DNA from: Rhodobacter capsulatus | Lineage (GTDB): Bacteria > Pseudomonadota > Alphaproteobacteria > Rhodobacterales > Rhodobacteraceae | Direction of reading: 5' to 3' | Assembly: GCF_003254295.1 (NCBI RefSeq) | Contig: NZ_QKZO01000003.1 | Span: 197,973 to 261,972 of the forward strand | DNA: 64,000 nucleotides | Notes under the pieces: generated by a model | Seen by the model: only the letters and a program-made list of their open reading frames with translations | What the model was told of the DNA's origin: nothing | The model's database searches: none | Shown: positions 19,301-52,854 of the stretch, in pieces | How positions within the stretch are numbered: the first letter of the stretch is position 1 | How the letters are laid out: each line of letters starts with the position of its first letter | Position numbers and translations under genes: made by a program

Positions 19301-19309
19301 GCGCCGCCC

Positions 19310-20422
19310 TCAGCCCGCCGCGCCGCCCACCGGGGGCAGGACGGTGACCCGGCAGATCGCCGGCGCGGAGCCGAGTTCGCTCAGCCACAGCACCCCGGCC
19401 TGTTGCAGGTCGATCTCCAGCAGGTACTCGCCCTCCCGCTCGGGGGCGCGCACCAGAAGCGTCGTCTCGAACGTGCCGCCCGGCGGCAGCGGCTGGGTGA
19501 ACGGCTGCTGGCCGTCAAGCCATTGCAAAAGGCTGCCATCGGGCGCGCGCCAGTGGTTGCCCAGCGTCAGACCGCTTTCGCGGCTGGGCGCCCAGAGCTG
19601 ATCCGTGCTGTTGCGCAATGTCACCGGCACCTCGCACAGGCCGCGCGCGGGCATCACCAGCTGCGCGGGCGCCGCAAGCTCGGCGCACAGCGACCAGAGC
19701 GGACCGGCCCCGGGGCTGGTGCCCGCGACGGCCTCGATGCGGCGGCGCAGGATCGCGCTCCACAGATCAAGGATCTTGCCGCTGAACAGGCTGCCATGTT
19801 CCGAGGGGATGGTGTCAAGGCTGCACAGCGGCAGCCGCTCGCGCAACAGCGCCTCGGCGTCGTGGAAGCGGTGCAGCGGGTTGGTGGTGTCATGCCGCCC
19901 GAGGATGAAGGCCGCGCGCCCGCCATAGGGGGTGATCAGAAACGGGTTGAGACAGATCAGCAGCGCGACCGGATGGTCGGCGGCAGTCAGGATCTGCGCG
20001 ATCTTCTGCGCCAGAAGCGCGCCCTGACAATTGCCGCCCAGAAACATCGGCCCCGACAGGCCCAGCGACAGCAGTTCTTCGGCGCAGATCATCGCCATGT
20101 GCAGATGGGTCTTCGCCCCGGGCTTCACCACCAGATGCCCCGAGCGCAGGCCGTAAAGCGGCTGATCGGGGCCAAGTGCCGCGGCCAGCGCGGCGAATTC
20201 CGCATAGCCCTGAAAGCACCAGACCAGCGGCGGGCGCGAGCCGCCGAGATTGACCCCGAAGATCAGCCCGTTTGCGCTGACCACCTCGCCCTGCCACCAG
20301 GGCCGGGTGACGGCCGCGACGGTCTTGCGCAGATGCGCGAGCAGCGCCGGATCGATTAGCCCCGCCCCGGCGGGGGCGGCGGCCGGGCTGTCCTGCGCGG
20401 CGGGAGAGGCGATCTTGCTCAT
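19310..20422 (-). CDS. Thioesterase-like alpha/beta hydrolase with Cys nucleophile and C-terminal beta-sandwich domain
   Basis: 370 residues, last gene of the seven-gene operon. The N-terminal part follows type I/II thioesterase order: PPLVWCFQGYAEF, LGPDQPLYGLRS, then the nucleophile elbow GGNCQGA with Cys132 in place of Ser, and SEHGSLFSGKILDLW with the likely catalytic His209. Residues about 245-365 look like a separate beta-sandwich domain (NSTDQLW, LGNHW, PPGGTF, APEREGEYLLEIDL, VLWLSELG). A Cys nucleophile is rare and is known in thioesterase domains that form strained or amide products. It probably releases or transfers the ACP-bound product. Its start overlaps the preceding gene by 4 bp. 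Fold fairly confident; reaction inferred. Confidence 0.75.
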   Translation of the reverse strand: MSKIASPAAQDSPAAAPAGAGLIDPALLAHLRKTVAAVTRPWWQGEVVSANGLIFGVNLGGSRPPLVWCFQGYAEFAALAAALGPDQPLYGLRSGHLVVKPGAKTHLHMAMICAEELLSLGLSGPMFLGGNCQGALLAQKIAQILTAADHPVALLICLNPFLITPYGGRAAFILGRHDTTNPLHRFHDAEALLRERLPLCSLDTIPSEHGSLFSGKILDLWSAILRRRIEAVAGTSPGAGPLWSLCAELAAPAQLVMPARGLCEVPVTLRNSTDQLWAPSRESGLTLGNHWRAPDGSLLQWLDGQQPFTQPLPPGGTFETTLLVRAPEREGEYLLEIDLQQAGVLWLSELGSAPAICRVTVLPPVGGAAG

Positions 20423-21885
20423 GTTCGCCGCAACCAGCCGTTGACGTTGAACGTCGCATTATGGCCGAACCGGTCGCAATATTGCGCGTCGATCGCGTAA
20501 TCGGCGCCGCGGCGGGCCAGAAAGGCGTCGATCGCCCGCGAGGGCGGCGAGAGCGCCGAGGCCACCGCCGCGATGTCGGCGGCGTCGCGAAAGGCGCCGT
20601 CCTCGATGATCACGTAATCGCCCGGGGTCAGATGCGGATCGATGTAGTCCAGAACCGCGGTGCAGGTCGCCTCGTCATGGGCGGAATCCTCGATCACCAG
20701 CAGCGGATGGCCGAGGCGGCGCAGCTCCTCGGGCGGCAGCACCCGCGCCAGATCGCGGGCGTCGCCGATGCGGGCATCGACCTGCGGATGCGCGCTGGGG
20801 GGACGCGGCAAAAGATCGATGCCGATCACCGGCCCGGGCAGGCCCAGCGCCGCCATCATGTCGGCCAGCCATTCGGTCCGCCCGCCTTCGAGACTGCCGA
20901 TCTCGATCACCGCCGCCGGTTTCAGCGCGCCCAGCAGCGCCAGATAATTCGCCATGTCGAGCGGGTTGAGCAGCATCGCCCGGCCCTTGTAGCGGGTCTC
21001 GAGGCTGCCCTTGAGCAGGCCGGTCAGCACTGCGTCGGGAAGCGCGCTGGAGAAATCCCGCGCCCCGCCGCCCTGCCCCGCCGCCGGTCTTGGCCCCGAT
21101 CCCGCAGGGGCCAGCGTCGGGCGGCTGGCATCGAGCCGTTCCAGCTCGGCGATCTTGCACAGGCTGCGCAGCGGGGGGCTGAGTTCGAGCCCGCCCAGCA
21201 CCGCCGAGAGCGCCCCCTCGCGGTCGGCCGCCAGCCGCGGTTGCGGCACGATCACCGCCAGACCGAACAGCAGCGGCAGCCAGACGACATGAAACTCTGC
21301 CCCGCGTTCGGCCAGAAAATCCTCGATCGCGGTCTTGACGCCATTGCGCGGACCGCCCTCCTCCACGGCATGGGCAAAGCCCGCATTGTAGCCCCCCGGC
21401 GAGAGGCCGCGCTCCCGCGGCAAGAGCCCGCCGATGCGATAGGGCTGGCGATGCGCAGCGGGGATGCGGTCGGGGCAATAGTAAAGATCGCGGCGCGCAT
21501 AGGGCCATTCGACATCGTGGCAGATGGTGATCGGCGCATCCGCCGCAAGCGGGCCTTCGCGGCCGTAGATCAGCTGCAATTCGGAATGCATCGTGTACCA
21601 GTTGTGATCGCCGTCCAGCAGCACGACATCGGCGGGCAGAAGATCGCCCAGCACCTCAAGACTGGGGCGCGGATGAAACACCGCCACCCCGGCAAAGCGG
21701 TCGCCCAGCCGCGCCAGCTCGGGCCCGGGTTCGGGATCGACGATGTCAAGCCGCGCCCCGGCGGCCTTGGCCCAGGCGGCCAGAAGCCGGGAATGGCGGC
21801 CCGCATCGGCGCCGACCTCGATCACGCGGCGCGCTTCGGCGGCGTCCAGAATGGGTTTGACGACACTGGGCCAGAATTGGAACAC
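20419..21885 (-). CDS. Two-domain protein: class I methyltransferase plus CmcI-like domain
   Basis: 488 residues. Residues about 1-200 form a Rossmann methyltransferase-like unit (VIEVGADAGRHSRLLAAWA, DIVDPEPG, VVLLDGDHNWYTMHSEL). After an Ala/Gly/Pro linker (about 255-275), residues about 285-488 resemble cephalosporin hydroxylase/CmcI-like methyltransferases: NPLDMANYLALLGAL, VIEIGSLEGGRTEW, VIGIDLLPRP, LLVIEDSAHDEA, GDYVIIEDGAF and DRFGHNATFN. CmcI-type domains are SAM-dependent O-methyltransferases or partners of hydroxylation. It sits 21 bp after the GT2-TylF gene, in the same operon. Two methyltransferase folds in one chain suggest two tailoring steps. Domain call fairly confident; substrates unknown. 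Confidence 0.78.
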   Translation of the reverse strand: MFQFWPSVVKPILDAAEARRVIEVGADAGRHSRLLAAWAKAAGARLDIVDPEPGPELARLGDRFAGVAVFHPRPSLEVLGDLLPADVVLLDGDHNWYTMHSELQLIYGREGPLAADAPITICHDVEWPYARRDLYYCPDRIPAAHRQPYRIGGLLPRERGLSPGGYNAGFAHAVEEGGPRNGVKTAIEDFLAERGAEFHVVWLPLLFGLAVIVPQPRLAADREGALSAVLGGLELSPPLRSLCKIAELERLDASRPTLAPAGSGPRPAAGQGGGARDFSSALPDAVLTGLLKGSLETRYKGRAMLLNPLDMANYLALLGALKPAAVIEIGSLEGGRTEWLADMMAALGLPGPVIGIDLLPRPPSAHPQVDARIGDARDLARVLPPEELRRLGHPLLVIEDSAHDEATCTAVLDYIDPHLTPGDYVIIEDGAFRDAADIAAVASALSPPSRAIDAFLARRGADYAIDAQYCDRFGHNATFNVNGWLRRT

Positions 21886-21906
21886 GGGGCTGTCTCCGAA
21901 AAAGGG

Positions 21907-23682
21907 TCACGACTTGCGCCAGAAGGCGCCCGTCCAGTCGATCATGCCAAGGGGCGCGGTGATGCCGCGCGCGGCGCGGAAGCGGTCCACCGCCAGCGCG
22001 CATTGGCCAAGGCCGCCGTAATCGTCGATGATGACGAAGCCCCCGGGCGCGACGCGGTCGTAAAGCGCCTCGAGCGCCTGCAGGGTGGAGCTGTAAAGAT
22101 CGCCATCGAGCCGCAGCAGCGCCAGTTTTTCCACCGCGCAGCCCGCCAGCGTGTCGGCAAAGAAGCCGGGCAGAAACCGCACCCGCGCATCGAGCAGGCC
22201 GAAATCGGCAAAGGCCCGCTCCACCCGCGCCTGCGACACGGCGAGTGCCGGGGCGTGGTCGCGCGACAGATCCAGCCCCTCGTCTTCGGGCAGCGCGGGC
22301 GGCGGCAGCCCGGCAAAGGAATCCGCCACCCAGAGGTTGCGGTCCTGCGCCCCGGCCAGATCGAGCATCGCCTTCATCAGCAGGCAGGCGCCGCCGCGCC
22401 AGACCCCGCATTCCATCAGATCGCCCGCCACCGCCTCGGCCAGAATGGTGGCGACGCAGTCCTGCAGATGGTCCAGCCGCCGCCGCCCGATCATCGTGTA
22501 GCCCAGCGGCGGACCGGCCTGCGCGGTCAGCGTGTCAAGGCCCTGCGCCCGCAGCCGCCGCTTTTCCGCCAGCGCCGGGGCCAGCTTGCCGGGCACGTCG
22601 TAAAGCGTCTCGCTCCAGAAGGCGGGGGGGATGTCCTTTCGGCCGCGCAGCGCATCCAGCGCGACCTCGGTTTCCAGCCCGGTCTCGTTCAAAAGCACCG
22701 CCTTGAGCAGGTCGATATAGCGCTCGCCCGCCTCGGGGCCGGGCCGCAGCGGCGTTGCAACCGCGCGCGGGGCCGCCGTCTGCCCCGCGGCAAGCTGGCG
22801 CGCGTAAGCCTCGGCGGCGCGGCGCGAGACCGGACCGAAATAGCTGCGCTCGGTGTCGACGACCCGGATCCGGCCGCGCAGGCGGTAATATTCCTTGGCG
22901 GCGCGCTTGTGCACCTCCAGCGCGGCGGCCCCGGCATTGGTATGGGTGCCGCCGTGGATCTGATGAAAGATCCCCTCGCCCAGAACCACCACCTGCCGCG
23001 TGCCCGGATGTTCCAGCGCGCGCCAGAGCAGATCGGCATTGGCCGCCCCGCCGCCCGGGCTTTCGAAGGCCGGATCGAAACCGCCCAGCGCGTCCCAAAG
23101 AGCGCGCGGCAGGAACAACAGATTGCTTTCGCTGAGCGGGCCGAACCAGCCGCGCCCGACATTCTCGGCAAAGGGGCTGATGTCGAACAGCCGGTAGCCG
23201 TCGGCCTGCCAGTCGATCCCGGTCAGCAGCCGGTCCTCCCAGGCGCTGTCATAGCCCTGCTGCTGGGTCAGCCATTGCGGCCCCGGCCCGATCTGGAACG
23301 AAAGCGTGCTGACGACCGGCATCGGATCGGTCCGCGCCGCGCGGCGGCAGGCCTCCAGCAGGCCAGGGCTGGCCATCCGCGCGCCGTCGATGCTGACGCC
23401 GATCAGCGGCGCCGCGGCCAGGCCCAGCCCGTGGTTGATCGCCCGCACCGGCGAGGGCGTCGGATCGGCAAAGCGCTCGATCCGCAGATTGAGGCCCAGA
23501 TCGGCGAAATCCTCGGCCCGCGGCGGCTGGCGCGAGCCGTTGTCGATCACGATCACCTCGTAATCCTCGGCGGCGATGCCCTCCTGATAACGCGGCGACA
23601 GGCTGTAAAGCGTCCGCGGCAATTCGCGCGCCATCTCGTGGCTGATCACGATCAGGCTCAGCTCGGGCGGCTTGGGGGTCAT
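21907..23682 (-). CDS. Fusion of a GT2-like glycosyltransferase and a TylF/MycF-type O-methyltransferase
   Basis: 591 residues. Residues about 1-260 have a GT-A fold pattern (LSLIVISHEMARELPRTL, YEVIVIDNGSR, LIGVSIDGARM). The usual DxD is IDGA (Asp99), so metal and donor binding may be altered. Residues about 390-591 match macrocin O-methyltransferases: YTMIGRRRLDHL, DLMECGVWRGGA, WVADSFAGLP, LLRLDGDLYSST, and GGFVIIDDYGG, with the Mg-binding Asp residues intact. TylF-type enzymes methylate sugar hydroxyls of glycosylated natural products. The ATG overlaps the ACP gene by 4 bp. Domain order is visible; the product is unknown. Confidence 0.8.
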   Translation of the reverse strand: MTPKPPELSLIVISHEMARELPRTLYSLSPRYQEGIAAEDYEVIVIDNGSRQPPRAEDFADLGLNLRIERFADPTPSPVRAINHGLGLAAAPLIGVSIDGARMASPGLLEACRRAARTDPMPVVSTLSFQIGPGPQWLTQQQGYDSAWEDRLLTGIDWQADGYRLFDISPFAENVGRGWFGPLSESNLLFLPRALWDALGGFDPAFESPGGGAANADLLWRALEHPGTRQVVVLGEGIFHQIHGGTHTNAGAAALEVHKRAAKEYYRLRGRIRVVDTERSYFGPVSRRAAEAYARQLAAGQTAAPRAVATPLRPGPEAGERYIDLLKAVLLNETGLETEVALDALRGRKDIPPAFWSETLYDVPGKLAPALAEKRRLRAQGLDTLTAQAGPPLGYTMIGRRRLDHLQDCVATILAEAVAGDLMECGVWRGGACLLMKAMLDLAGAQDRNLWVADSFAGLPPPALPEDEGLDLSRDHAPALAVSQARVERAFADFGLLDARVRFLPGFFADTLAGCAVEKLALLRLDGDLYSSTLQALEALYDRVAPGGFVIIDDYGGLGQCALAVDRFRAARGITAPLGMIDWTGAFWRKS

Positions 23683-23927
23683 GAAAGCAGGCCGCTTTCC
23701 CGCAGATCGGCGATCAGCTCGTCGATCGTGGCATTGCGCAGGACCAGCGTCGCCTCGATCTCGGTGCCGAAATGCTCCTCCATCGCGCCCGCCATCACCA
23801 CGGCATCGACCGAGTCGATCCCCAGATTGTAAAACGGCGCATCGCCGGTGATGGTGGCCGCCTCGGCCCCCGTCAGCGACACGAGAAATTCGGTGATCCA
23901 GGTTCTGACGGCGGTTTCGTTCAGCAT
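23679..23927 (-). CDS. Free-standing acyl carrier protein
   Basis: 82 residues. The phosphopantetheine site is in LGIDSVDAVVMAGAMEEHF (Ser39), with the standard four-helix pattern and acidic character. Free-standing ACPs next to an acyl-AMP ligase normally receive the adenylated acid directly. The ATG at 23927 is preferred; an ATG at 23960 would add 11 non-family residues. It lies 38 bp after the P450 stop and overlaps the GT2-TylF start by 4 bp, so it belongs to the same operon. It is the probable tether for P450 and radical SAM tailoring. Confident as a carrier protein; could carry an aminoacyl group. Confidence 0.9.
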   Translation of the reverse strand: MLNETAVRTWITEFLVSLTGAEAATITGDAPFYNLGIDSVDAVVMAGAMEEHFGTEIEATLVLRNATIDELIADLRESGLLS

Positions 23928-23965
23928 CGGTGCCTCGCAGCAGGGGATTTCGGGGGCCATGCGGG

Positions 23966-25174
23966 TCAGACCTGCACGGGAAGATTGGTCATGCGGCGCT
24001 GGTTGTGCAGCGGCCGCCAGCCGGGCCGGTCGATGCACAGCCGCGGGCGCGGCCCGTCCAGCACGGTGCCCAGCGCAATCTCGGCCTCCATCCGGGCGAC
24101 CCAGGCGCCAAGGCAATGATGCAGCCCGGCGCCGAAGGATTGCACCGGCCGCCCGGTGCGCCCGGGCAGGTAAAGGTCGGGGTCGGGATAGGCCTGCGGG
24201 TCGCGGTTGGCGGCGGCGATCATCAGCACGATCTGCTGCCCCGCCCGGATCTCCTGCCCGGCAAGGGTCATGTCGGTGGCGGCGCGACGGCGGACCTGCT
24301 GGATCGGCGCCTCCAGCCGCAAGGCCTCCTCGGCGGCACTAGCCAGCAGCCTCCGGTCGGCCGCGACGCGGTCGCATTGATCGGGATGGTCAAGCAGCAG
24401 CCAGAGCGCATTGCCGATCAGCGCCGAGGTGGTCTCGAAGCCCGCCATGAAGACGAAGCTGGTCAGGGCGGTCAGCCGGTCGTCGTCAAAGGGCGCCTCG
24501 GAGGCGTCATTGCGGCTGACCAGCAGCGACAGGCCGTCGTCGCGCGGGGCGTTGCGGCGGGCGGCGATCTCGGGGCGCAGGAAGGCATGCGCCTCGGTCA
24601 GGCGCAGCTCGGCGGCGCGGAAATCGCGGATCGAGGCGCCGCGGTTGAGGATCACCGGCACCCCCGCCAGCGTCTGCGCCAGCCAGAGCGCATCGGCATC
24701 GGCCAGCCCCAAAAGCCAGCCCATGAAGCGCGGCGGCAGCGGATCGGCAAAGCCGGTCATCAGGTCCAGACCGCCGTCGCGGGCCAGCGGCGCGTGCAGA
24801 TCGCGGGCGATGCGCGTCACCTCGGCGGCGCAGGCGGCCTGCGGGCGCAGCGCCAGAAGCCGCGCCACCAGCGCGCGCAGCGGCCCATGCGCGGGCGGGT
24901 TGCGGAAAAAGATCGCCATTTCAAGCAGCCGCAACAGTTCGACCGGATGATCACCCAGCGCCTGCGAGACATCGGCGACGAACTGCCCCAGATCCAGCGT
25001 CAGCAGGCCGGGGGTGCCAAAGGCCGCGCTGACGTCCTGATGACGCAGCAGCACCCAGGCCTGTTCGGTCTCGGTCCAGAACACCGGCGCGCGGGCGCGC
25101 AGCGTCGCGTAGACCGGATAGGGGTCGTCGCGCAACAGCGGCGCAAGACTGTTGAACGATCCAAGATCACCCAT
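23966..25174 (-). CDS. Cytochrome P450
   Basis: 402 residues, the usual bacterial length. The heme loop is SFGAGLHHCLG (Cys354), the I-helix is FMAGFETTS (243-250, acid-Thr pair Glu247-Thr248), and the K-helix ExxR is Glu283-Arg286. It should be soluble and need a ferredoxin and reductase from elsewhere; none is encoded nearby. In clusters with an ACP the P450 often hydroxylates the carrier-bound acyl or amino acid. AGGAGG precedes the ATG at 25174, which overlaps the ligase gene by 8 bp. The reading frame continues far upstream inside the ligase gene but without P450 character. Family certain; substrate unknown. Confidence 0.94.
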   Translation of the reverse strand: MGDLGSFNSLAPLLRDDPYPVYATLRARAPVFWTETEQAWVLLRHQDVSAAFGTPGLLTLDLGQFVADVSQALGDHPVELLRLLEMAIFFRNPPAHGPLRALVARLLALRPQAACAAEVTRIARDLHAPLARDGGLDLMTGFADPLPPRFMGWLLGLADADALWLAQTLAGVPVILNRGASIRDFRAAELRLTEAHAFLRPEIAARRNAPRDDGLSLLVSRNDASEAPFDDDRLTALTSFVFMAGFETTSALIGNALWLLLDHPDQCDRVAADRRLLASAAEEALRLEAPIQQVRRRAATDMTLAGQEIRAGQQIVLMIAAANRDPQAYPDPDLYLPGRTGRPVQSFGAGLHHCLGAWVARMEAEIALGTVLDGPRPRLCIDRPGWRPLHNQRRMTNLPVQV

Positions 25175-26912
25175 CGGAACCTCCTGAAATTGCAACACAT
25201 TCTTCCGGCGCAGCCGGACAGCGGGCCAGATCGGCCGCCAGATAGGCGGCGCGGCAGGCGCCGCGGCGGATCTTGTTGCTGGTGGTGCGCGGCAAGGTGC
25301 CGGGCCGCACCAGCACGACCTCGAGCGGGCGCACCCCGAAACCCTCGCAGATCGCCGCCGTGACCGCCTGCGTTGCCAGATCCAGCGCCGGATCGGCCTG
25401 ATGGCCGCGCTTGACCTCCTGTACCACGACCAGCGCCTCGGTGCCATCCTGCGGCACGGCAAAGGCGGCGGCGGTGGCGGAGAGCGCGGGATGGGCGCGG
25501 GTGGCGGCGGCCTCGATATCCTCGGGGTGGTGCTTGGCGCCGCGGATGATGACGATGTCCTTGAGCCGGCCGACGACGGCCAGCCCCCCGCCCTGCATCT
25601 GCCCCAGATCGCCGGTGCGCAGGAAAGCCGGGCCGTCCTCGTTCGCGATCCGCGCGCCGAAGCTGCCCCGGCTGCGTTCGGGCTGCTGCCAGTAGCCCGC
25701 GCCGACATGCGGACCCGCCACCCAGATCTCGCCCACCCGGCCCTCGGGCAGGCGTTCGCAGGTTTCGGGATCGACGATGGCCAGCTGCTGCCCCGCGGCG
25801 CCGATGCCGCAGATCACCCGCTCGGGCTGGTCCGCAGACCCGGGGAGCGTCGCCAGCCCGCTGCCCGCCGGTCCGCCCGAGACGAAAAGCGTCGTCTCGG
25901 CCATGCCGTAGCAGGGAAACAGCGCCTTCGGGTCGAAGCCCGCCGGGGCAAGACGGGCGGCGAAGCGGCGCAGATCCTCGGCCCGGACGGGTTCGGCGCC
26001 GCAAAAGGCGACGCGCCAGCTGGACAGGTCAAGACCCTCGATCTGTTCGGGGCGCAGGCGCTCGGCGCACAGCGCATAGGCGAAATTCGGCCCGCCGCTG
26101 CTGGTGGCGCGGTGGCGCGCGATCGCCTGCAGCCAGCGCAGCGGCCGCTGGATGAAGTCCATCGGCGCCATCAAGACCGTCTCGGCGCCCAGATAAAGCG
26201 GCTGCAGCATCCCGCCGACCAGCCCCATGTCGTGGAACAGCGGCAGCCAGCTGACCATCCGCGTCTCGCTGTCATGGCCAAAGGCGCGGCGGATCATCTC
26301 CATGTTGGCGATCAGATTGGACTGGGTGACGATCACCCCGCGCGGATCAGCGGTCGAGCCCGAGGTATATTGCAAAAAGGCCGGATCTTCGGGATGCGGC
26401 GGGGCGGGAGGCGGCGCATCGCCCGCGGGCGCGGGTCCGTCGGTGGGGATCCAGTCCAGATCGGGCCGCACCGCGGCGACGGCGTCGCGGATCGTCGCTT
26501 CGGCGGCCAGCGCGGCCGAACACAGCACCAGACGGGGGCGCGCATCCGCGGCGATCGCCGCGATCCGCGGGGCGGAGCGCGCAGGCGTGATGTAGGGCGT
26601 CGGCACCGCGATGGCGCCTGCGTAAAGACAGGCCCAGAAGCCGATGACAAAGGGCAGACCCGGCGGATAGACCAGAAGCACGGTCCGCCCGCGCGCGCCG
26701 CGCGCCAGCAGTTCGGCCGCCCAAAGCCGGGCCTGACGGTCCAGATCGGCATAGGTCAGGCTTTGCCCCGCGCCCTCGCCGTGGTCCAGAAACCGCAAGG
26801 CGACCTTGTCGGGACGGTTCCGGGCGTGCCGCTGCAGAACCTGCGCCAAAGTCGTGGTCTGATCGGTGGGCAGGGACGCAAGCCCCCCCGGCCCGGTCGT
26901 CTGCGCCATCAT
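25167..26912 (-). CDS. Fatty-acyl-AMP ligase-like adenylating enzyme (FAAL)
   Basis: 581 residues, typical FAAL length. It adenylates a carboxylic acid and passes it to a carrier protein. Motifs are the P-loop YTSGSTADPRGV, SWLPLFHDMGL, PCYGMAETTLFVSGG, the hinge FLRTGDLG and DIVIIRGAKHHPEDIE, which is the FAAL form of A8, and the C-terminal Lys in LPRTTSNKIRRGAC. The upstream radical SAM stop overlaps the ATG (26912-26909). With the ACP two genes downstream, it likely loads the starter unit. FAAL versus acyl-CoA ligase is judged from the A8 motif and context; an amino-acid-like substrate cannot be excluded. Confidence 0.87.
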   Translation of the reverse strand: MMAQTTGPGGLASLPTDQTTTLAQVLQRHARNRPDKVALRFLDHGEGAGQSLTYADLDRQARLWAAELLARGARGRTVLLVYPPGLPFVIGFWACLYAGAIAVPTPYITPARSAPRIAAIAADARPRLVLCSAALAAEATIRDAVAAVRPDLDWIPTDGPAPAGDAPPPAPPHPEDPAFLQYTSGSTADPRGVIVTQSNLIANMEMIRRAFGHDSETRMVSWLPLFHDMGLVGGMLQPLYLGAETVLMAPMDFIQRPLRWLQAIARHRATSSGGPNFAYALCAERLRPEQIEGLDLSSWRVAFCGAEPVRAEDLRRFAARLAPAGFDPKALFPCYGMAETTLFVSGGPAGSGLATLPGSADQPERVICGIGAAGQQLAIVDPETCERLPEGRVGEIWVAGPHVGAGYWQQPERSRGSFGARIANEDGPAFLRTGDLGQMQGGGLAVVGRLKDIVIIRGAKHHPEDIEAAATRAHPALSATAAAFAVPQDGTEALVVVQEVKRGHQADPALDLATQAVTAAICEGFGVRPLEVVLVRPGTLPRTTSNKIRRGACRAAYLAADLARCPAAPEECVAISGGSDG

Positions 26913-27844
26913 CGCCCCCCCTGCCGGAACCGCGCCACCGCCGCGGTGGCGGGGCCGAGCGTCAGCTTTGCGCCCATCTCGCAGCGGTTGCAGACCGGCA
27001 TCGTCGCCCGGCGCGTGACCAGCGCCTGCAAGAACTCTGCCCGCCCCTCCCCGGCCCAAAGCGCGCTGTAGCGGCTTTGCCCCAGATTGCCGAGCTGCGC
27101 GGCGCCCGGATGAAAGCAGCACGGCACGATGTTGCCGCGATGATCGACGTAAAGATTGCCCGGATCGGCGGCGATCGCGCAGCCGCCGCTGCCCATCGTC
27201 ACCTGATCGCGGGCCCGGTCGCGCAGGCTGTCGGGCAGCTGGATCCAGCCGCGGAATTCGGGATGAATGCCAAAGGGGGCCAGCACATCGCGCCAGCGCA
27301 GCTTGTCCTCGGGCGTCTCGATCACGCAGCGCGCCTGCAGGCGCAGGCCCGGATATGTCGTCGCCAGATCCCGGGCAAAGGCCAGAAAAGACATCAGTTT
27401 CGACCACTTGGCCGGTGGGCGCAGGGCTTCGTAACTGTCCGGCGTGCCGTCGCCGTCGCAGCTGACCGTCAGCAGATTGAGCGCCCCCATCGCCACCAGC
27501 GCCTCCAGCCGGTCGCGGGCGTCGCTTTGCGCATTGGTGGAAATCTCCACCCAATGCCGCTCGATCGGGCTGGCCAGCAGGATCCGGCCCAGCTCTTCCA
27601 GCTCGGGATGCAGCAGCGGCTCGCCGTAATTGAACAGGCGTATCAGCGTAATTTTCGGCACGTCGATGTTGGAGAGGCAGCGCGCGAACAGATCGGGCGC
27701 GATGAACTCGGGCCGCGGATCAAGGCCGGAATTCGGGCAGCCGACGCAACGCAGCTGGCAGCCGCCGACGATGTCGAAATGCAGGGTGGACAGCGCGCGC
27801 CGCCCCCCGGCAGGGATCGTCTGTCGCGGCAGCGGAGATGTCAT
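26909..27844 (-). CDS. Radical SAM protein with SPASM-like C-terminus
   Basis: 311 residues, first gene of the operon. The [4Fe-4S] motif is CQLRCVGC (Cys29, 33, 36, CxxxCxxC), followed by FNYGEPLLHPEL and a partial barrel. The C-terminal part has GGCAIA, DHRGNIVPCCFHP, LGNLGQSRYSALW and CNRCEMGA, which looks like a SPASM auxiliary cluster domain. Such enzymes modify peptides, sugars or amino acids by radical chemistry. The ATG at 27844 has AGGAGGG 10 bp upstream; the longer open frame (to 28438) crosses the promoter region. The stop overlaps the FAAL start by 4 bp. Superfamily certain; reaction unknown. Confidence 0.88.
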   Translation of the reverse strand: MTSPLPRQTIPAGGRRALSTLHFDIVGGCQLRCVGCPNSGLDPRPEFIAPDLFARCLSNIDVPKITLIRLFNYGEPLLHPELEELGRILLASPIERHWVEISTNAQSDARDRLEALVAMGALNLLTVSCDGDGTPDSYEALRPPAKWSKLMSFLAFARDLATTYPGLRLQARCVIETPEDKLRWRDVLAPFGIHPEFRGWIQLPDSLRDRARDQVTMGSGGCAIAADPGNLYVDHRGNIVPCCFHPGAAQLGNLGQSRYSALWAGEGRAEFLQALVTRRATMPVCNRCEMGAKLTLGPATAAVARFRQGGR

Positions 27845-28223
27845 GGGTTTCGCACCCTCCTGATTGGCACTCTCCTGAAGCGGCGCAACACCGACGCCCG
27901 GACGTCTTTGGCGAAGGTCAGACCAACCGCGTACCGGCACAATTCCAGGCGACATGCCCCGCGGGACAGGCCCCGTATCTGCAGGAAGATCATCGCAAAT
28001 CCCGGGGGTCAAGAGGGATTCGTCGGCGCTTGCGCTCTGCCGCCCGCGCCCGGCGCCGGGGCCGGAAGCTGGGCCACGGCGGGGCCATGACGGGGACCGC
28101 AGCCCCCGCGAAACCCCGTTTTTTCCCGGTCGCACATAAAAAATACCAAAACTCGATAAACACAGTGGACTTTTTACCGGAGATGGCATTCCCTTGGCAC
28201 AGACCCTTCTTCGGAGAGCCCGG
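27845..28223. promoter_or_regulatory. 379-bp divergent control region between the biosynthetic operon and the Lrp gene
   Basis: No gene is supported here. The half near 27845 is ordinary GC-rich sequence with the AGGAGGG site of the radical SAM gene on the minus strand. The half near 28130-28190 is clearly AT-richer (ACATAAAAAATACC, ACTCGATAAACACAG, ACTTTTTACC), typical of a promoter and of Lrp-type binding regions. A hairpin with a T6 run on the plus strand ends at 28124. I could not fix -35 and -10 elements with confidence. Confidence 0.5.
28090..28124 (+). terminator. Terminator-like hairpin in the leader of the Lrp gene
   Basis: ACGGGG (28090-28095) pairs with CCCCGT (28114-28119) and six T residues follow (28119-28124). 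There is no plus-strand gene upstream in this gap, so it is either a leader attenuator for the Lrp gene or the 3' end of an unannotated small RNA. The short stem and long loop make this tentative. Confidence 0.35.
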
Positions 28224-28697
28224 ATGGCCCAGCTTGATCTGATCGACCGCAAGATTGTTTCCGAACTGATGCGCGACGCGACGCTGCCGGTGGCGCAGAT
28301 CGCCGACCGGGTCGGGCTGTCGCAGACGCCGTGCTGGAAGCGGATCCAGAAACTGGAAACCTCGGGGGTGATCGAAAAGCGCGTGGCGCTGGCCAATCCG
28401 CAGGAATTGGGGCTGGGGCTGACTGTCTTTGTCGCCATCGAGGCCCCCGATCACGGCCCGGACTGGCGCGCCGCCTTTGCCGCCGCGGTCGAAAAGCTGC
28501 CCGAAATCATGGAGGTGTGGCGCATGGCGGGGGAAATGGATTACCTGCTGCGCGTCGCGGTCTCGGACATGGCGGCCTATGACCTGCTTTACCGCCGCCT
28601 GACCGATGCGGTGCCGATCCGCAATATCACCTCGCATTTCGCGATGGAGCGGCTGCGCCACACCACAGCCTATCCGATCGACACCAAAAGCTGGTAA
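28224..28697 (+). CDS. Lrp/AsnC-family transcriptional regulator
   Basis: 157 residues. An N-terminal winged HTH (LDLIDRKIVSELMRDA, VAQIADRVGLSQTPCWKRIQKLETSGVI) is followed by an AsnC/RAM ligand-binding domain (LGLTVFVAIEAP, VWRMAGEMDYLLRVAVSDMAAYD). These proteins respond to amino acids and often control a divergent gene. It is divergent from the biosynthetic operon at 19.3-27.8 kb, which makes that operon a good candidate target. The ATG at 28224 has CGGAGAG upstream; a TTG at 28194 is the alternative. It converges with the GntR gene with a 6-bp gap. Family certain; target inferred. Confidence 0.93.
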   Translation: MAQLDLIDRKIVSELMRDATLPVAQIADRVGLSQTPCWKRIQKLETSGVIEKRVALANPQELGLGLTVFVAIEAPDHGPDWRAAFAAAVEKLPEIMEVWRMAGEMDYLLRVAVSDMAAYDLLYRRLTDAVPIRNITSHFAMERLRHTTAYPIDTKSW

Positions 28698-28703
28698 GCG
28701 GTC

Positions 28704-29420
28704 TCAGCGCGCGGACAGCACCGCCACCAGATCGCCCCCGGCAGGCGCCCTGCCCGACAGATCCAGCGTGGCGGCGATGTCTTGCAGATGCGCCGCCATC
28801 AGCCGTTCCGCCGCCGCCCCGTCGCGCGCGCGCAGCGCCTGCAACAGCGTGGCATGGTCGTGATCGCGGCAGGTCTCCAGCCCCGGCGCGCCGTAAATCG
28901 CCACGATCAGCGAGCTGCGCGCCACCAGCTCGCGCAGTATCCGTTCGAGCGTGGCATTGCCGCTTGCCTCGGCCAGCTGCAGATGGAACTGCCCCGAAAG
29001 CCGGATCGCCTCGTGGCGGCTGCCGCGATCATGCGCGGCGGCCTCTTCGGCGATGAACCGTTCCAGCGCGGCGATTTCCGCGGCGCCTGCGCGTTCGGCC
29101 ACCAGACGCGCGATCGCCGGTTCCAGCGCCGCGCGCGCCTCGAACACGTCGCGCGCCTGCGCGGGCGTCGGGCTGGCCACATAGGCGCCGCGGTTTTCGC
29201 GCAGCTCCACCACCTCGCGGCTGGCCAGAAGCAGCAGACAGCGGCGGATCCGCATCCGCCCGACCCCGAAGGCCTTGCACAATTCCGATTCGGACAGCTT
29301 GGTCCCCGCGGCCAGCCGCCGTTCCATCACCGCCTCGAAAATGCGCTCGACGATCTCGGTTTCGGTGATTTCGTCACCAGCACCGGAACCGTCCGTCTCT
29401 TGTGCAGGGCTCTCGTTCAT
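28704..29420 (-). CDS. GntR-family regulator, FCD subfamily
   Basis: 238 residues. The HTH (ITETEIVERIFEAVMERRLAAGTKLSESELCKAFGVGRM) leads into an all-helical FCD domain with the metal/ligand His residues typical of FadR-like sensors (EAIRLSGQFHLQLAEASGNATLERIL, RDHDHATLLQALRARD). It is divergent from the ABC importer and racemase genes starting at 29625, with a perfect 14-bp palindrome between them, so it probably represses that operon until its organic-acid or ureide ligand binds. The ATG at 29420 starts a sensible N-terminus; upstream codons of the open frame cross the promoter. Family certain. Confidence 0.9.
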   Translation of the reverse strand: MNESPAQETDGSGAGDEITETEIVERIFEAVMERRLAAGTKLSESELCKAFGVGRMRIRRCLLLLASREVVELRENRGAYVASPTPAQARDVFEARAALEPAIARLVAERAGAAEIAALERFIAEEAAAHDRGSRHEAIRLSGQFHLQLAEASGNATLERILRELVARSSLIVAIYGAPGLETCRDHDHATLLQALRARDGAAAERLMAAHLQDIAATLDLSGRAPAGGDLVAVLSAR

Positions 29421-29517
29421 CACGCCGGGTCCAAAACATCCTGTCTTCACAGGCAAATACATCCGCCCCCCGAGGCCAGCAAGCGTCGCGGCGGTCACAG
29501 TCAGGATAACAGGATGG

Positions 29518-29538
29518 TTGACAGGATTGTTAACAATC
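29518..29538. promoter_or_regulatory. TTGACA hexamer and palindromic operator for the ABC/racemase operon
   Basis: A consensus TTGACA (29518-29523) is followed at once by GATTGTTAACAATC (29525-29538), a perfect 14-bp palindrome lying in the spacer where a -35/-10 promoter would be. Its core TTGTTAACAA resembles the GT-N-AC type of FadR/FCD operators. CAGGAT occurs three times just around it (from about 29502 to 29526). Repression by the divergent GntR protein is the simplest reading. No good -10 was found. Confidence 0.55.
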
Positions 29539-29624
29539 TTTTCCCTGACCTCAGGCAACAGCGCCAGAGCGCCGGATCATGGCTCTGGTGCAAACACAAA
29601 GACGGTCCACAGGGAGTTTCCACG

Positions 29625-46126: not shown

Positions 46127-47193
46127 AAATCCTGATGGTTATGAACGCCAAGGGCGTCGGCGGCGCGGAATTGCAGTTCCTTGAACTGGCCAATTATCTG
46201 GCCCAGCGGCACGAGGTGCATGTGATCGGGCTGCACGGCACCGGCGCTTTCGAAAAGGCCGGGCTCGATGCCCGGCTGCGCCCGGCGGCCTTCCCCTACA
46301 AATCCGGCAAAAGATCGCTGCCCCAGCTTGTCCGGGCGGTGCGCAAGGGCGTCTCGCTGCGCGCCGATGTCGTGCTGTCGACCTCGTTCATCGGCAATCT
46401 TGTCGCCCTTGCGATCGCCGCCCCCTTCGGCACGCGGCGGATTTCGCTGCAGACCGTGTCGAAGGCGATGGCCTATCCGGCGCTTGACCGCTGGGTGCTG
46501 AACCGCTTCGACGGCCTTGTCGCGGGCTGCAAGGATATCGAAACCTATCTTCTGCGGCGCGGCCATCGTCAGGACCGCATCACGGTGGTCTCGAACTGGG
46601 TCGATTTTTCGGCGCGCAAGCCAAGCCTCTCCGCGGCCGAAACGCGGGCGAAATTCGGCCTTGGCGCCGAGACCACCCTGATCGGCTGCATCGGCCGGAT
46701 GCATGTCCAGAAAGGCCAGGAGTTCTTGATCCGGGCCTTCCGCAAGCTGGCGCAGGGGCGCGGCGACCTGCGCCTTGTCCTTGTCGGCGACGGGCCGACG
46801 CTCGAGGAGATGCGAAAGGAAGCCGCCGGACATCCGCAGATCCTTTTCACCGGCACGATCCAGGGCGAGGATTACAACAACCTGCTGGCCGCCTTTGACA
46901 TTTACGCGCAGCCCTCGCGGTTCGAGGGCCTGCCGCGGACGCTTCTGGATGCGATGTTCATGGGCAAGCCGATCGTGGCGACGGCGGTGAACGGCAATCT
47001 GGACGCGGTCACCGACATGGCGGAGGGGCTGCTGGTTCCGGCCGAGGATGCAGAGGCCCTTGCCGCCGCGCTGGAGCAGCTGCTGCAGGACCGGGAGCTG
47101 CGCGCGCGGCTGTCGCGGCAGGCGCATGAAAGCGCCGAGGCCTCGTTCTCGGCCCAGCAACAGCTTCAGAAAATCGAAAATCTGCTTTCATGA
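46123..47193 (+). CDS. GT4-type glycosyltransferase
   Basis: 356 residues, GT-B fold. N-terminal ILMVMNAKGVGGAELQFLELANYL is the usual acceptor-side glycine motif; the donor side has IGCIGRMHVQKGQEFLIRAF, LVGDGP and PSRFEGLPRTLLDAMFMGKPIVA. In the EX7E motif the second Glu is Asp. It adds a sugar during assembly of the surface polysaccharide repeat unit. It overlaps the flippase by 4 bp. Family confident; donor sugar unknown. Confidence 0.9.
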   Translation: MKILMVMNAKGVGGAELQFLELANYLAQRHEVHVIGLHGTGAFEKAGLDARLRPAAFPYKSGKRSLPQLVRAVRKGVSLRADVVLSTSFIGNLVALAIAAPFGTRRISLQTVSKAMAYPALDRWVLNRFDGLVAGCKDIETYLLRRGHRQDRITVVSNWVDFSARKPSLSAAETRAKFGLGAETTLIGCIGRMHVQKGQEFLIRAFRKLAQGRGDLRLVLVGDGPTLEEMRKEAAGHPQILFTGTIQGEDYNNLLAAFDIYAQPSRFEGLPRTLLDAMFMGKPIVATAVNGNLDAVTDMAEGLLVPAEDAEALAAALEQLLQDRELRARLSRQAHESAEASFSAQQQLQKIENLLS

Positions 47194-47215
47194 GTCGAGG
47201 AGGCGTATCTTTTCA

Positions 47216-48391
47216 ATGAGAATTTCAGGATCTCACGTTGAAGCGATTACAGGCGGCATTGTGATGTCCACGTGGACGCTGGGCTTCAACGCAGCGTCCC
47301 AGCTTCTCGCGATCGTTCATGTCTTGTTGTTTTTTTTCAGAAACGGACTCGGTGTTCGCCTCGACTTCATTGCAGCCATTCTGGTCGCAATCGTTATTTT
47401 TGCCAGCAACATTTTCTATCTTGAAAATGACATCGATCTTGCCTTTCGCGGCTTCGGAAAGCTCATCATAATCCTGTCGTTTTGCTATACATTATACTGG
47501 TCTCTCGCCAAGCTCGACGACAAAGGCTGGGAAATCATCCGAAGAACCTTATGGCTTTCACTCGCCTTATCTGTAATCCAGCTCAAAGGTTTCGATCTTG
47601 GTTTCATGCCCCAGATGTTATGCATTCTTTTTATTTTCAACGTCGAATTCATATTGAATCTGCAAGGCCGCCGACCGGCACCCTTATATATATCAGCCAT
47701 CATCATGCTTTTTTCCATGAAAAAACAGATCATTGCTTCAGCCTTGATGCTCGTTGGCTTAACTCGTCCGATCAGAAGTTTTTTCATCGGCACAGGCGCG
47801 ATTTTCGCGATATTGTTTGCACCTCATGTATGGCTGTTCTTCAGCCCGAACTCTGCGAACTTTATGGACGGGCGGCGATCATCTTTCCTTTCCGAACGCT
47901 TTATCACCGTCGATCCTTACGGAAACATGCGCCTTTTCCTACTCGCTGAATACGGAGGAGAAGTCGTTGACAAAAGCATTATTTTCGGATTCGGACTTGA
48001 GAAATTCGGATCAATCCCAGCCTTTGAAACGAATAGAGACATTGAAAGAAACATCCTTGGCATGAACGACTTTGTGGCGGAAAAATACAATACCAATACT
48101 GTCTTCGGTTCAGTGAGTGCCGATGTCGGAATCTTGATCATATGGATGCAGATGGGACTACTTGGCTTTCTGTTCTATTACTTGCTTATAAAATCGGTGG
48201 CAGGAAAAAATTTCCGCACCTTTCTTGTTATAGCGACCATTGCTCCTTTTCTAATCGCCGGAGCGAACGTGATCTCGGTCGGACTTTCAATTCTCGTATC
48301 TCTGACGGCAATGTCACTTGAGACAGGATTTGGAAAGACGGTTCAGAAAAAACGAGAGGTTCAACACCATGCGAATATTGCTCGTCCATAA
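47216..48391 (+). CDS. AT-rich Wzy-like polytopic membrane protein
   Basis: 391 residues with about ten hydrophobic segments and a larger extracytoplasmic loop at about 225-310 (SERFITVDPYGNMRLFLLAEYGG), the layout of O-antigen or exopolysaccharide polymerases. No sequence motif proves polymerase function. Base composition is strikingly different from neighbours: many T- and A-runs, AT-ending codons such as TTA, ATA and AAA. This points to recent acquisition from a lower-GC donor. GAGGAGG precedes the ATG at 47216; the end overlaps the next GT gene by 23 bp. Membrane protein certain; Wzy role inferred from place and topology. Confidence 0.72.
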   Translation: MRISGSHVEAITGGIVMSTWTLGFNAASQLLAIVHVLLFFFRNGLGVRLDFIAAILVAIVIFASNIFYLENDIDLAFRGFGKLIIILSFCYTLYWSLAKLDDKGWEIIRRTLWLSLALSVIQLKGFDLGFMPQMLCILFIFNVEFILNLQGRRPAPLYISAIIMLFSMKKQIIASALMLVGLTRPIRSFFIGTGAIFAILFAPHVWLFFSPNSANFMDGRRSSFLSERFITVDPYGNMRLFLLAEYGGEVVDKSIIFGFGLEKFGSIPAFETNRDIERNILGMNDFVAEKYNTNTVFGSVSADVGILIIWMQMGLLGFLFYYLLIKSVAGKNFRTFLVIATIAPFLIAGANVISVGLSILVSLTAMSLETGFGKTVQKKREVQHHANIARP

Positions 48392-49583
48392 CAATTACGC
48401 GATCCAGGGCGGCGCGGAAGTCTTTTATCATGAAATCGCGCGCCTGCTGCGCGAGAACGGCCACGAGGTGGCGATGTTCTCCTGCGCCGAGGAGGGCGTG
48501 ACCGCCCCGCAGGTCGCCTATTTCCCGAAGGTGGACCATTATGCCAGCGGCGGGCTCCTTGCCAAGGCGGCGCGGATCCCGCGCGTCATCTACAACCGCG
48601 ACGCGCGCGATGCGATGGCGCGGCTCATCGCCGATTTTCGCCCCGATCTCGTGCATGGCTTTGCCGTCTACGGAAGGTTGACCCCCGCGGTGCTGCAGGC
48701 AGCGCGCGACGCCGGCGTTCCGGTGGTGCTTTCGTGCAACGATTACAAGCACATATGCCCGAACTACAAACTGTTCCATCACGGCCGCCTGTGCGAAGAC
48801 TGCAAGGGCGGGCGGTTCCACAAGGCGCTTGTCAACCGGTGCTGCCATGACAGCCTTGCGATCAGCGCCGTCTCGATGCTGGAGGCGCAGGTGCATGAGC
48901 GCCTCGACATCTGGCGCAAGAACGTGACCTGTTTCCTCTTCGCAAGCCGCTTCATGGCGGCCCGGACCGAGGCGTTCTGGGGCCCGGGGCGCGTCGCGAT
49001 CGACTTTCTGCGCAATCCTTTCGATGCGGCGGCGCATCATCTGCCGCTGCAGGCGGGCAGCTACATCTTGTATTTCGGACGGTTGATTGACGAAAAGGGT
49101 GTGGATCAGCTGGTCGCGGCGGCCCGGCTTGCCCCCGATGTTCCGGTGGTGATCGTCGGCGACGGGCCCGACCGCGCCGCGATCGAGCGCGCCGCCGCCG
49201 ATCTGCCGCAACTGCGTGTCGTCGGACCGGCCTGGGGAGAGGCGCTGAAGGGCTGGCTGCAGGGCGCGCGGGCGGTGGTGGTCCCGTCGCTGTGGCACGA
49301 AAACTTCCCCTATGTGATCTTGCAGGCTTTCGCGGCGGGCAAGCCGGTGATCGGCGCCGCGCGCGGCGGCATTCCCGAGCTGGTCGAGGCCGGTCCGCAT
49401 GGCTGGCTGGTCGACCCGCTTGACCTGCAGGCTCTGGCGGCCCGGATGCGGGATGTCGTGCAAATGCCCGATGCGGCGCTTCTCGAAATGGGGCGGGCGG
49501 CGCAGTCTTACGTCACGAAAGAATTCAGCGACGAAACGATCTACGCGGAGGTGCTTCGCATATATGGGGGTATTTTGCAATGA
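48369..49583 (+). CDS. GT4-type glycosyltransferase
   Basis: 404 residues, GT-B fold. RILLVHNNYAIQGGAEVFYHEIARLL opens the protein, and the donor half has YILYFGRLIDEKGVDQLVAAA, VVIVGDGPDRA and HENFPYVILQAFAAGKPVIGAARGGIPELV. The second Glu of EX7E is Gln. A Cys-rich insert (CNDYKHICPNYKLF, CEDCKGG, RCCHD) resembles that of GTs from capsule clusters. The ATG at 48369 lies inside the end of the polymerase-like gene. GC content is back to the genomic norm. Family confident; sugar unknown. Confidence 0.9.
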   Translation: MRILLVHNNYAIQGGAEVFYHEIARLLRENGHEVAMFSCAEEGVTAPQVAYFPKVDHYASGGLLAKAARIPRVIYNRDARDAMARLIADFRPDLVHGFAVYGRLTPAVLQAARDAGVPVVLSCNDYKHICPNYKLFHHGRLCEDCKGGRFHKALVNRCCHDSLAISAVSMLEAQVHERLDIWRKNVTCFLFASRFMAARTEAFWGPGRVAIDFLRNPFDAAAHHLPLQAGSYILYFGRLIDEKGVDQLVAAARLAPDVPVVIVGDGPDRAAIERAAADLPQLRVVGPAWGEALKGWLQGARAVVVPSLWHENFPYVILQAFAAGKPVIGAARGGIPELVEAGPHGWLVDPLDLQALAARMRDVVQMPDAALLEMGRAAQSYVTKEFSDETIYAEVLRIYGGILQ

Positions 49584-50497
49584 AGGCACTTGTCATTGGC
49601 GGCAGCGGCTTTATCGGATCGCATCTTGTGGATCGATTGTTGCAGCGCGGGGTGAAGGTGCGCGTTTATGACCGCTCTGCCGAGCGGTTTCGCGACACGC
49701 CTGCCCCGGTGGATTTTCGGCAGGGCAGTTTTGACGATTCCGCCTCGCTCGCCGAAGCGCTGAATGACATGGATGTGGTGTTTCATCTGCTCAGCACCTC
49801 GGTGCCGTCGACATCCAATCTGGACCCGGTCGGGGATATTACGGGAAATCTGATCGGGACGGTTCGCCTGCTTGAATTGATGCGGGGCGCCGGTGTCCGC
49901 AGGATCGTTTATCTGTCGTCCGGCGGCACCGTATATGGCATTCCGGAAATGGATCCGGTGCGGGAAAATCATCCGCAAAAACCGATCAGTTCCTATGGTG
50001 TGGTCAAGGGCGCGATCGAGAAATATCTGATGATGGAACAGCATCTGCATGGGCTGAAACCCGTCATTCTTCGACCCTCGAATCCCTATGGTCCGCGGCA
50101 GGGGCATGGGGGTGTCCAGGGCGTCATCGGCACCTTTCTTTGGCGCCTTGCATCACGGGAACCGATTGAAATATGGGGCGACGGCAAGATTGTCCGAGAT
50201 TTCATCCAGATCACGGATCTGGCGGAATTATGCGCCCTGTGCGGCCTGTCGGACATCACCGGCATCTTCAATGCCGGCAGCGGCACCGGTCATTCGATCC
50301 TGGAAGTCGTCGAGACAATCTCGGAGGTGGTCGGAAAACCTGTCGAGCCGCGTTTCAAGCCCGGGCGCGGATTTGACGTGCCGCGCGTCATTCTCGACAT
50401 CTCCGCCATCCGCGAAAAAATTTCCTGGAAACCGCAGATTGCCCTGGCTGACGGGATCGCGGAAACTTGGGAATGGATCCGGAAACAGGCGTCTTGA
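49580..50497 (+). CDS. NAD-dependent nucleotide-sugar epimerase/dehydratase
   Basis: 305 residues, extended SDR. The Rossmann motif GGSGFIGSHLVDRLL, the Ser region VYLSSGGTVYG and the catalytic YGVVKG (YxxxK) are intact, and RPSNPYGPRQ and RDFIQITDLAELCAL are typical of GalE-like enzymes. It supplies a modified nucleotide sugar, possibly UDP-galactose or a uronic acid. The ATG overlaps the upstream GT by 4 bp. Base composition is somewhat lower in GC than genes outside the island. Family confident; substrate unknown. Confidence 0.88.
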   Translation: MKALVIGGSGFIGSHLVDRLLQRGVKVRVYDRSAERFRDTPAPVDFRQGSFDDSASLAEALNDMDVVFHLLSTSVPSTSNLDPVGDITGNLIGTVRLLELMRGAGVRRIVYLSSGGTVYGIPEMDPVRENHPQKPISSYGVVKGAIEKYLMMEQHLHGLKPVILRPSNPYGPRQGHGGVQGVIGTFLWRLASREPIEIWGDGKIVRDFIQITDLAELCALCGLSDITGIFNAGSGTGHSILEVVETISEVVGKPVEPRFKPGRGFDVPRVILDISAIREKISWKPQIALADGIAETWEWIRKQAS

Positions 50498-50630
50498 TCG
50501 CGTGTTCAAAAACACCTGCCGATCTTCTGTCTTCATATGGGTTTGCAGGCATCGACCGCGGAGTTTGGCCGGGTTTTCACCTGCGCGAGATCGGGCCAAT
50601 ATTCATCGACGTTTCAAGGAAGGTTTGGGG

Positions 50631-52717: not shown

Positions 52718-52727
52718 TCGGATCAGG
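52699..52727. terminator. Perfect 12-bp hairpin at the end of the polysaccharide island
   Basis: CCTGATCCGATC pairs with GATCGGATCAGG around a GATCT loop. The hairpin spans the TGA of the last glycosyltransferase gene. There is no T-run, so it may slow decay of the mRNA or act with Rho instead of being an intrinsic terminator. Confidence 0.55.
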
Positions 52728-52854
52728 CCGCCCCCCCCGGCCAAGGCGACGCTTGCGCGACCGGGAAGGCCGCCGCCTCGCGGCATCTTTACGCATCTTG
52801 CCTTGACCTTTGGTCGCCCAGAGGCCAGCTTGCGCCGACTTTTGGGAGCGATCC

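Follow-up and report, generated by a model that had tools for sequence, protein, structure and literature searches.

What could seven closely spaced genes build when none of them carries a polyketide synthase (PKS) or nonribosomal peptide synthetase (NRPS) module? The question is raised by an 8.5-kb operon of Rhodobacter capsulatus (contig NZ_QKZO01000003.1), which lies on the minus strand at positions 19310-27844 of a 64,000-nucleotide stretch, the whole of which is called the window here. The operon encodes a radical S-adenosylmethionine (SAM) protein, a predicted fatty acyl-AMP ligase (FAAL), a cytochrome P450, a free acyl carrier protein (ACP), a GT2-TylF fusion, a methyltransferase-CmcI fusion and a putative thioesterase (TE). 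The set may be a cassette, self-contained and spread by horizontal transfer, whose product is an oxidised acyl unit attached to a decorated, O-methylated sugar; the whole chain of steps in this reading is put forward tentatively, at somewhat below an even chance.

Distribution, probable transfer and selection of the cassette

Six genomes were found to hold these seven genes in the same order. Three belong to the R. capsulatus group, and the others are those of Sinirhodobacter ferrireducens, Bradyrhizobium sp. SRS-191 and Rhizobium oryziradicis N19. Within the genus the radical SAM gene is present in 4 of 18 genomes, all four of which hold the seven genes in order. A scan of an 84,980-species collection with two exact peptide patterns, which misses relatives lacking both, returned 24 loci, four of them with the complete cassette in this order: R. 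capsulatus SP108 and S. ferrireducens, both already counted as genus carriers, and the Bradyrhizobium and Rhizobium strains. Identity to the window cassette is 63-82% for S. ferrireducens, 59-79% for Bradyrhizobium sp. SRS-191 and 54-74% for R. oryziradicis N19. At the 20 other loci, several on short contigs, the radical SAM gene is 41-47% identical, and six of these loci contain weaker matches to further cassette proteins: the methyltransferase-CmcI fusion in L021, L022, L023 and L031 (27-32%) and the FAAL in L021 and L024 (33-34%); L031 also matches the TylF half (25%), and L035 the GT2 half (48%).

The co-occurrence search across Rhodobacteraceae proposed in the initial annotation shows the whole set recurring in order, but the radical SAM gene is rare in the family: of 394 genomes spanning 393 genera two carry it, and these two belong to a single genus. 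The set also occurs in Bradyrhizobium and Rhizobium. A search with a profile of the radical SAM protein at E 1e-40 retrieved one of 385 class genomes, the source genome itself, and on these counts a common Rhodobacteraceae pathway is ruled out. The radical SAM protein has no match in plasmids at 1e-5 and the P450 none at 1e-40; 19 pattern matches for the radical SAM protein in viral contigs include no relative.

Bradyrhizobium belongs to another order. Its cassette is 67-84% identical to that of Sinirhodobacter and is closer to it than the window cassette is (63-82%) in all seven proteins. The genes around the cassette differ from host to host, R. capsulatus having moxR and lrp there, Sinirhodobacter murA/hisD-like genes (its moxR sits on a contig other than that of the cassette), with two sulfotransferases and an RgpF-domain protein in Bradyrhizobium and transport genes in Rhizobium, so that the set looks like a transferred, self-contained cassette. 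Six proteins flanking the window cassette are 96-99% identical to those of genomes G396 and G395. In four of the 14 genus genomes that lack the radical SAM gene the moxR region was compared, and the similarity stops at window positions 19301-19322, just past the moxR stop codon; the nearest of these congeners (G408) has another gene after moxR, with lrp on a separate contig. This breakpoint is consistent with a transferred unit lodged where a rearrangement took place. In the three R. capsulatus-group genomes the cassette is adjoined by an Lrp-type gene, which diverges from the operon, and by a GntR-type gene (window 28194-29558); neither has a close match beside the cassette in the other three hosts.

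For each of the 21 gene comparisons between the window and three homologous cassettes, dN/dS falls within 0.09-0.47, and all seven proteins are thus maintained under purifying selection. Conserved order in six genomes together with this selection rules out a chance origin of the gene set.

The encoded enzymes

All seven genes listed in the initial annotation were located, and six of the seven proteins pass the curated Pfam cut-offs with the domains claimed for them, the exception being the TE; the claim that no PKS or NRPS module is present likewise agrees with the Pfam matches of the seven genes. Four of the six gene junctions overlap, by 4, 8, 4 and 4 bp, and two are gaps, of 38 bp between P450 and ACP and 21 bp between the two fusions, so the description of nearly all junctions as overlapping by 4-8 bp is right for four of them and fails for these two.

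The first gene in transcription order (27844-26909) encodes the 311-residue radical SAM protein. Its motif C29-C33-C36 (CxxxCxxC) and residues C222, C242, C243, C285 and C288 are invariant in 23/23 aligned sequences (alignment A2, spanning the 24 scan loci except L024 and L036). The cysteines suffice for a single auxiliary cluster (C222, C242/C243, C285, C288). The Pfam SPASM model PF13186 is matched over its cut-off, yet no cysteine occurs past C285-x2-C288 in the window protein. A full SPASM domain, with two auxiliary clusters, has a seven-cysteine motif, and this assignment was rejected. The radical SAM/SPASM label given earlier is accordingly narrowed: the SPASM match stands, and the cysteine pattern predicts a twitch-like protein with one auxiliary cluster. 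Structure comparison of the predicted model places BtrN at the top with SuiB tied, and DesII, SpeY and BlsE are also listed. BtrN, DesII, SpeY and BlsE are enzymes that act on sugars or cyclitols.

The FAAL gene (26912-25167; 581 residues; PF00501) follows. The best PDB matches of its product are 7r7f (E 3.9e-138) and 3kxw (E 1.2e-108), both given as FAALs in table 1 of PMC11837247. The segment that holds the FAAL insertion, from GAEPV to GEIWVAG, is 96 residues long compared with 67-91 residues in eight of the 11 other AMP-binding matches of the same genome (L079-L081 fall outside the comparison), that is, 5-29 residues longer, with a margin of 5 residues over one of the eight. The ligase is most likely a fatty acyl-AMP ligase, in keeping with the FAAL-type call made at the outset.

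The P450 (25174-23966; 402 residues; PF00067) contains the heme motif FGAGLHHCLG and matches its nearest solved P450 at E 2e-46 and P450-BioI at 1.6e-40. Its best NCBIfam match, a P450-derived glycosyltransferase activator, is under the cut-off, and with the heme cysteine present this identity was set aside. The free ACP (23927-23679; 82 residues; PF00550, E 2.9e-14) has its serine in GIDSVDAV. Two phosphopantetheinyl transferase (PPTase)-family matches occur in the genome. At about 23400-29700 of contig C15 of genome G000 (L073, L077, L083) a PPTase-family match adjoins two AMP-binding matches, one of them in a 1448-residue frame, which suggests an NRPS-type cluster distinct from the operon; its PPTase might also prime the operon ACP.

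The GT2-TylF fusion (23682-21907; 591 residues) has an N-terminal GT2 half that barely passes the PF00535 cut-off (25.6 bits against 23.3) and carries the motif IDGAR, invariant in 7/7 aligned sequences. Its C-terminal half gives a whole-domain match to PF05711 over the cut-off (E 8.3e-101), matches the solved structure 4cdz, NovP and the mycinamicin methyltransferase, and is assigned from these matches as a TylF/MycF-type O-methyltransferase. The second fusion (21885-20419; 488 residues; GTG start) combines PF13578 (Methyltransf_24) and PF04989 (RMNT_CmcI), matches the CmcI structures 2br3 and 2bm8, and is predicted to be a class I methyltransferase joined to a CmcI/rhamnosyl O-methyltransferase-like domain.

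The last gene (20422-19310) encodes the 370-residue TE, in which Cys132 (GGNCQG) and His209 are invariant in 5/5 aligned homologues. Four plasmid records match it at 33-40% identity, and three of these carry NRPS or adenylation protein annotations. These residues and the NRPS-type kin suit a putative Cys-type thioesterase, the earlier designation; the Pfam Thioesterase model remains below its cut-off (E 0.0073). Two of the three NRPS-type TE-relative loci viewed (a fourth, H18, lies outside this count) sit among glycosyltransferase genes. At the C terminus N_BRCA1_IG is matched weakly in 4/4 sequences, every match being below the cut-off. The AlphaFold2 model of the TE is too poor for a fold assignment (pLDDT 49), and the matches of its immunoglobulin (Ig)-like tail are to many Ig folds, the Wzt carbohydrate-binding domain among them; the tail possibly binds sugar.

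Proposed pathway and competing explanations

The order of the steps and their chemistry are what we infer from the enzymes described above. The substrate of the FAAL would be a free carboxylic acid (a fatty acid is the most likely one), which the enzyme would adenylate and load onto the lone ACP; the ACP would be primed by a host PPTase. The acyl-ACP would be hydroxylated by the P450, and the GT2 domain would either place a sugar on the new hydroxyl or build the sugar to which the acyl group is then joined. O-methylation would fall to the TylF, CmcI and third methyltransferase domains, the BtrN-like radical SAM enzyme would convert one sugar hydroxyl to a ketone, and the Cys-type TE would detach the chain from its carrier, whether by hydrolysing it, by forming a lactone or by passing it to the glycan. 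The acyl- or aminoacyl-derived molecule on a lone carrier envisaged in the initial annotation is retained in part: the predicted domains make a PKS- and NRPS-free acyl line with glycosyl and methyl transfer likely, and for an aminoacyl substrate nothing speaks beyond the NRPS kinship of the TE.

A functional link between the acyl and the sugar enzymes is supported by a second locus with homologues of ACP (32% identical), GT2 (52%), FAAL (41%) and P450 (29%) within 5.6 kb, on plasmid pBSY17_1 of Sphingobium sp. RAC03. The gene run there (L085, 7711-13309) is ACP-GT2-dioxygenase-FAAL-dioxygenase-P450, beside polysaccharide pyruvyltransferases. In the 16.8 kb read around it tblastn gives no match to the radical SAM protein, TylF, the methyltransferase-CmcI fusion or the TE at E 0.01.

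Several findings weigh against the proposed pathway. Homologues of FAAL, ACP and P450 are absent at E 1e-3 from all seven GT2 loci without the cassette that were taken from eight such genomes (G837, a congener of G913, being the eighth), which leaves the cassette and one plasmid as the basis of the acyl link. Many GT2 enzymes carry a DxD-type metal motif. In the window protein IDGAR stands at the DxD-type position, and the activity predicted for the GT2 domain is therefore uncertain. Radical dehydrogenation is suggested by the modelled fold of the radical SAM protein, in which the peptide-modifying SuiB ties with BtrN and SkfB (17.7), anSME (17.3) and MoaA (16.7) lie close. Every NCBIfam model listed for the operon's products stays short of its cut-off, which means that none of the seven is a named equivalog, and no exporter is found among the seven genes. 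Finally, in three of the four genomic settings of the cassette (R. capsulatus, Sinirhodobacter and Rhizobium) the gene lists contain no adjacent glycan genes.

A strong rival, given a somewhat smaller chance than the proposed pathway, is surface-glycan acylation: the methylated, oxidised sugar would belong to a capsule, lipopolysaccharide, flagellin or pilin glycan, the TE would move the FAAL-ACP acyl group onto it, and no free small molecule would result. The acyl block (FAAL, ACP, P450, TE) is of the natural-product type. For the glycan block (GT2, TylF, CmcI, Methyltransf_24 and radical SAM), some of the relatives lie in surface loci. In L031 (350-16647) genes on both strands for a methyltransferase, TylF, a twitch-like radical SAM protein, CmcI and TPR-GT41 lie near a flagellin gene; the locus may be an island for flagellin modification that includes a radical SAM step. 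The radical SAM relative lies near CmcI and a pilin-type gene in L021 and near CmcI and a glycosyltransferase in L023; for some of the nine cassette-free radical SAM loci (of 20) whose gene lists were read, such as L022, a surface-glycan setting is not clear. A GT2-CmcI fusion occurs in a plasmid polysaccharide locus of Rhodobacter sp. CZR27 (L037). Among further GT2 relatives, with neighbouring Pfam domains viewed for three, one is fused to a sulfotransferase (L102), another adjoins TylF (L101) and a third adjoins Methyltransf_24 (L103). The sulfotransferases and RgpF-domain protein flanking the Bradyrhizobium cassette, the TE relatives among glycosyltransferase genes and the Wzt match of the low-confidence Ig-like tail point in the same direction. 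The lack of glycan genes in three settings counts against this rival as well, and the seven genes have no Pfam match to a flippase, a polymerase or a lipid-carrier transferase.

Apart from the operon, window positions 47000-53000 have a lower GC content (50-63% per kb) and hold two group 1/4-type glycosyltransferases and a sulfotransferase, perhaps a polysaccharide island of foreign origin. Positions 59328-62549 encode a 1073-residue protein with many RTX calcium-binding repeats.

It is improbable that the operon makes a lactone or ester natural product, in which the Cys-type TE cyclises or couples the hydroxyacyl chain and the sugar is secondary, as a diffusible signal or antibiotic. The invariant Cys132 and the mostly NRPS-type kin of the TE suit this explanation, and the Cys-type TEs of SulM and ObiF1 make beta-lactam or beta-lactone rings (PMC11298585); against it, the Pfam matches of the seven genes include neither a condensation domain nor an exporter or resistance gene, and some of the TE kin sit in glycan loci. 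A slightly smaller chance is given to a carrier-tethered variant of the proposed pathway, with the sugar placed on the ACP-bound hydroxyacyl chain and methylated and radically oxidised there, before the TE, guided by its Ig-like tail, passes the finished acyl glycoside on to a surface polymer; if true, this would be a mobile pathway joining a polyyne-like acyl line to surface-glycan decoration. An acyl-CoA route, in which the ligase would supply acyl-CoA to catabolism or to membrane lipid synthesis, with the ACP, P450 and sugar enzymes as unrelated passengers, is very improbable, for although the insertion segment is 5 residues shorter than in the homologues L014-L016 and exceeds one comparison enzyme by just 5, and the FAAL models of NCBIfam fall below their cut-offs (PRK05850, E 1.3e-127), the best solved matches are FAALs, the segment exceeds all eight comparison enzymes, and the ACP lies close to the FAAL gene and is co-inherited with it in six genomes.

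Comparison with known systems

A literature search by titles and the beginnings of abstracts, mostly outside subscription journals, found no published description of the operon, and the remark that no described cluster has this exact set holds in that no characterised cluster with the gene order was met, MIBiG and antiSMASH comparisons lying outside the survey. If the proposed pathway is correct, the seven genes would form a small, complete and transferable pathway of 8.5 kb in a genetically tractable bacterium, and since the host is tractable and the operon small, the product can be sought by deletion or expression of the operon. The pathway would also link the free-standing FAAL-ACP chemistry of polyynes and lipopeptides to the glycosyltransferase, methyltransferase and radical SAM families of surface-glycan loci, in which a product has yet to be assigned to many such enzymes.

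The Sphingobium pBSY17_1 locus, to our knowledge of no known function, shares the ACP, GT2, FAAL and P450 homologues and differs in its two phytanoyl-CoA dioxygenases and its pyruvyltransferases. The twitch dehydrogenases BtrN and SpeY resemble the radical SAM protein in modelled fold and in the four-cysteine auxiliary pattern (for BtrN, PMC9012708), but identity across the structural matches is just 17-20%, with SuiB tied and anSME and MoaA close.

Polyynes need no PKS or NRPS module. The FAAL, ACP and thioesterase parts of polyyne clusters are present in the operon, with weaker evidence for the thioesterase; Pfam finds neither the three desaturases nor the rubredoxin among the seven genes, and polyyne cluster membership was therefore rejected. 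According to PMC8406139, the alkyne and polyyne cassettes (jamABC; caryoynencin, protegencin) likewise combine a FAAL and an ACP with oxidative enzymes, with a TE in the polyyne clusters, and these cassettes are also compact and show evidence of horizontal transfer. In contrast to them, the operon adds the radical SAM protein, a glycosyltransferase and three methyltransferase domains.

Large PKS or NRPS enzymes, which the operon lacks, build the lipid cores of the mycobacterial glycolipids, and we know of no P450-ACP-radical SAM set in their loci. The likeness to the phenolic glycolipid and glycopeptidolipid loci lies in O-methylated sugar lipids made with dedicated methyltransferases (PMC3594219), in the match of the CmcI half to RMNT_CmcI and in the FAALs listed for phthiocerol dimycocerosate and glycopeptidolipid (PMC11837247, table 2). 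Having neither desaturases and rubredoxin nor PKS or NRPS enzymes, the operon is a member of neither group, and its logic is nearest to that of the polyyne cassettes and the O-methylated mycobacterial glycolipids.

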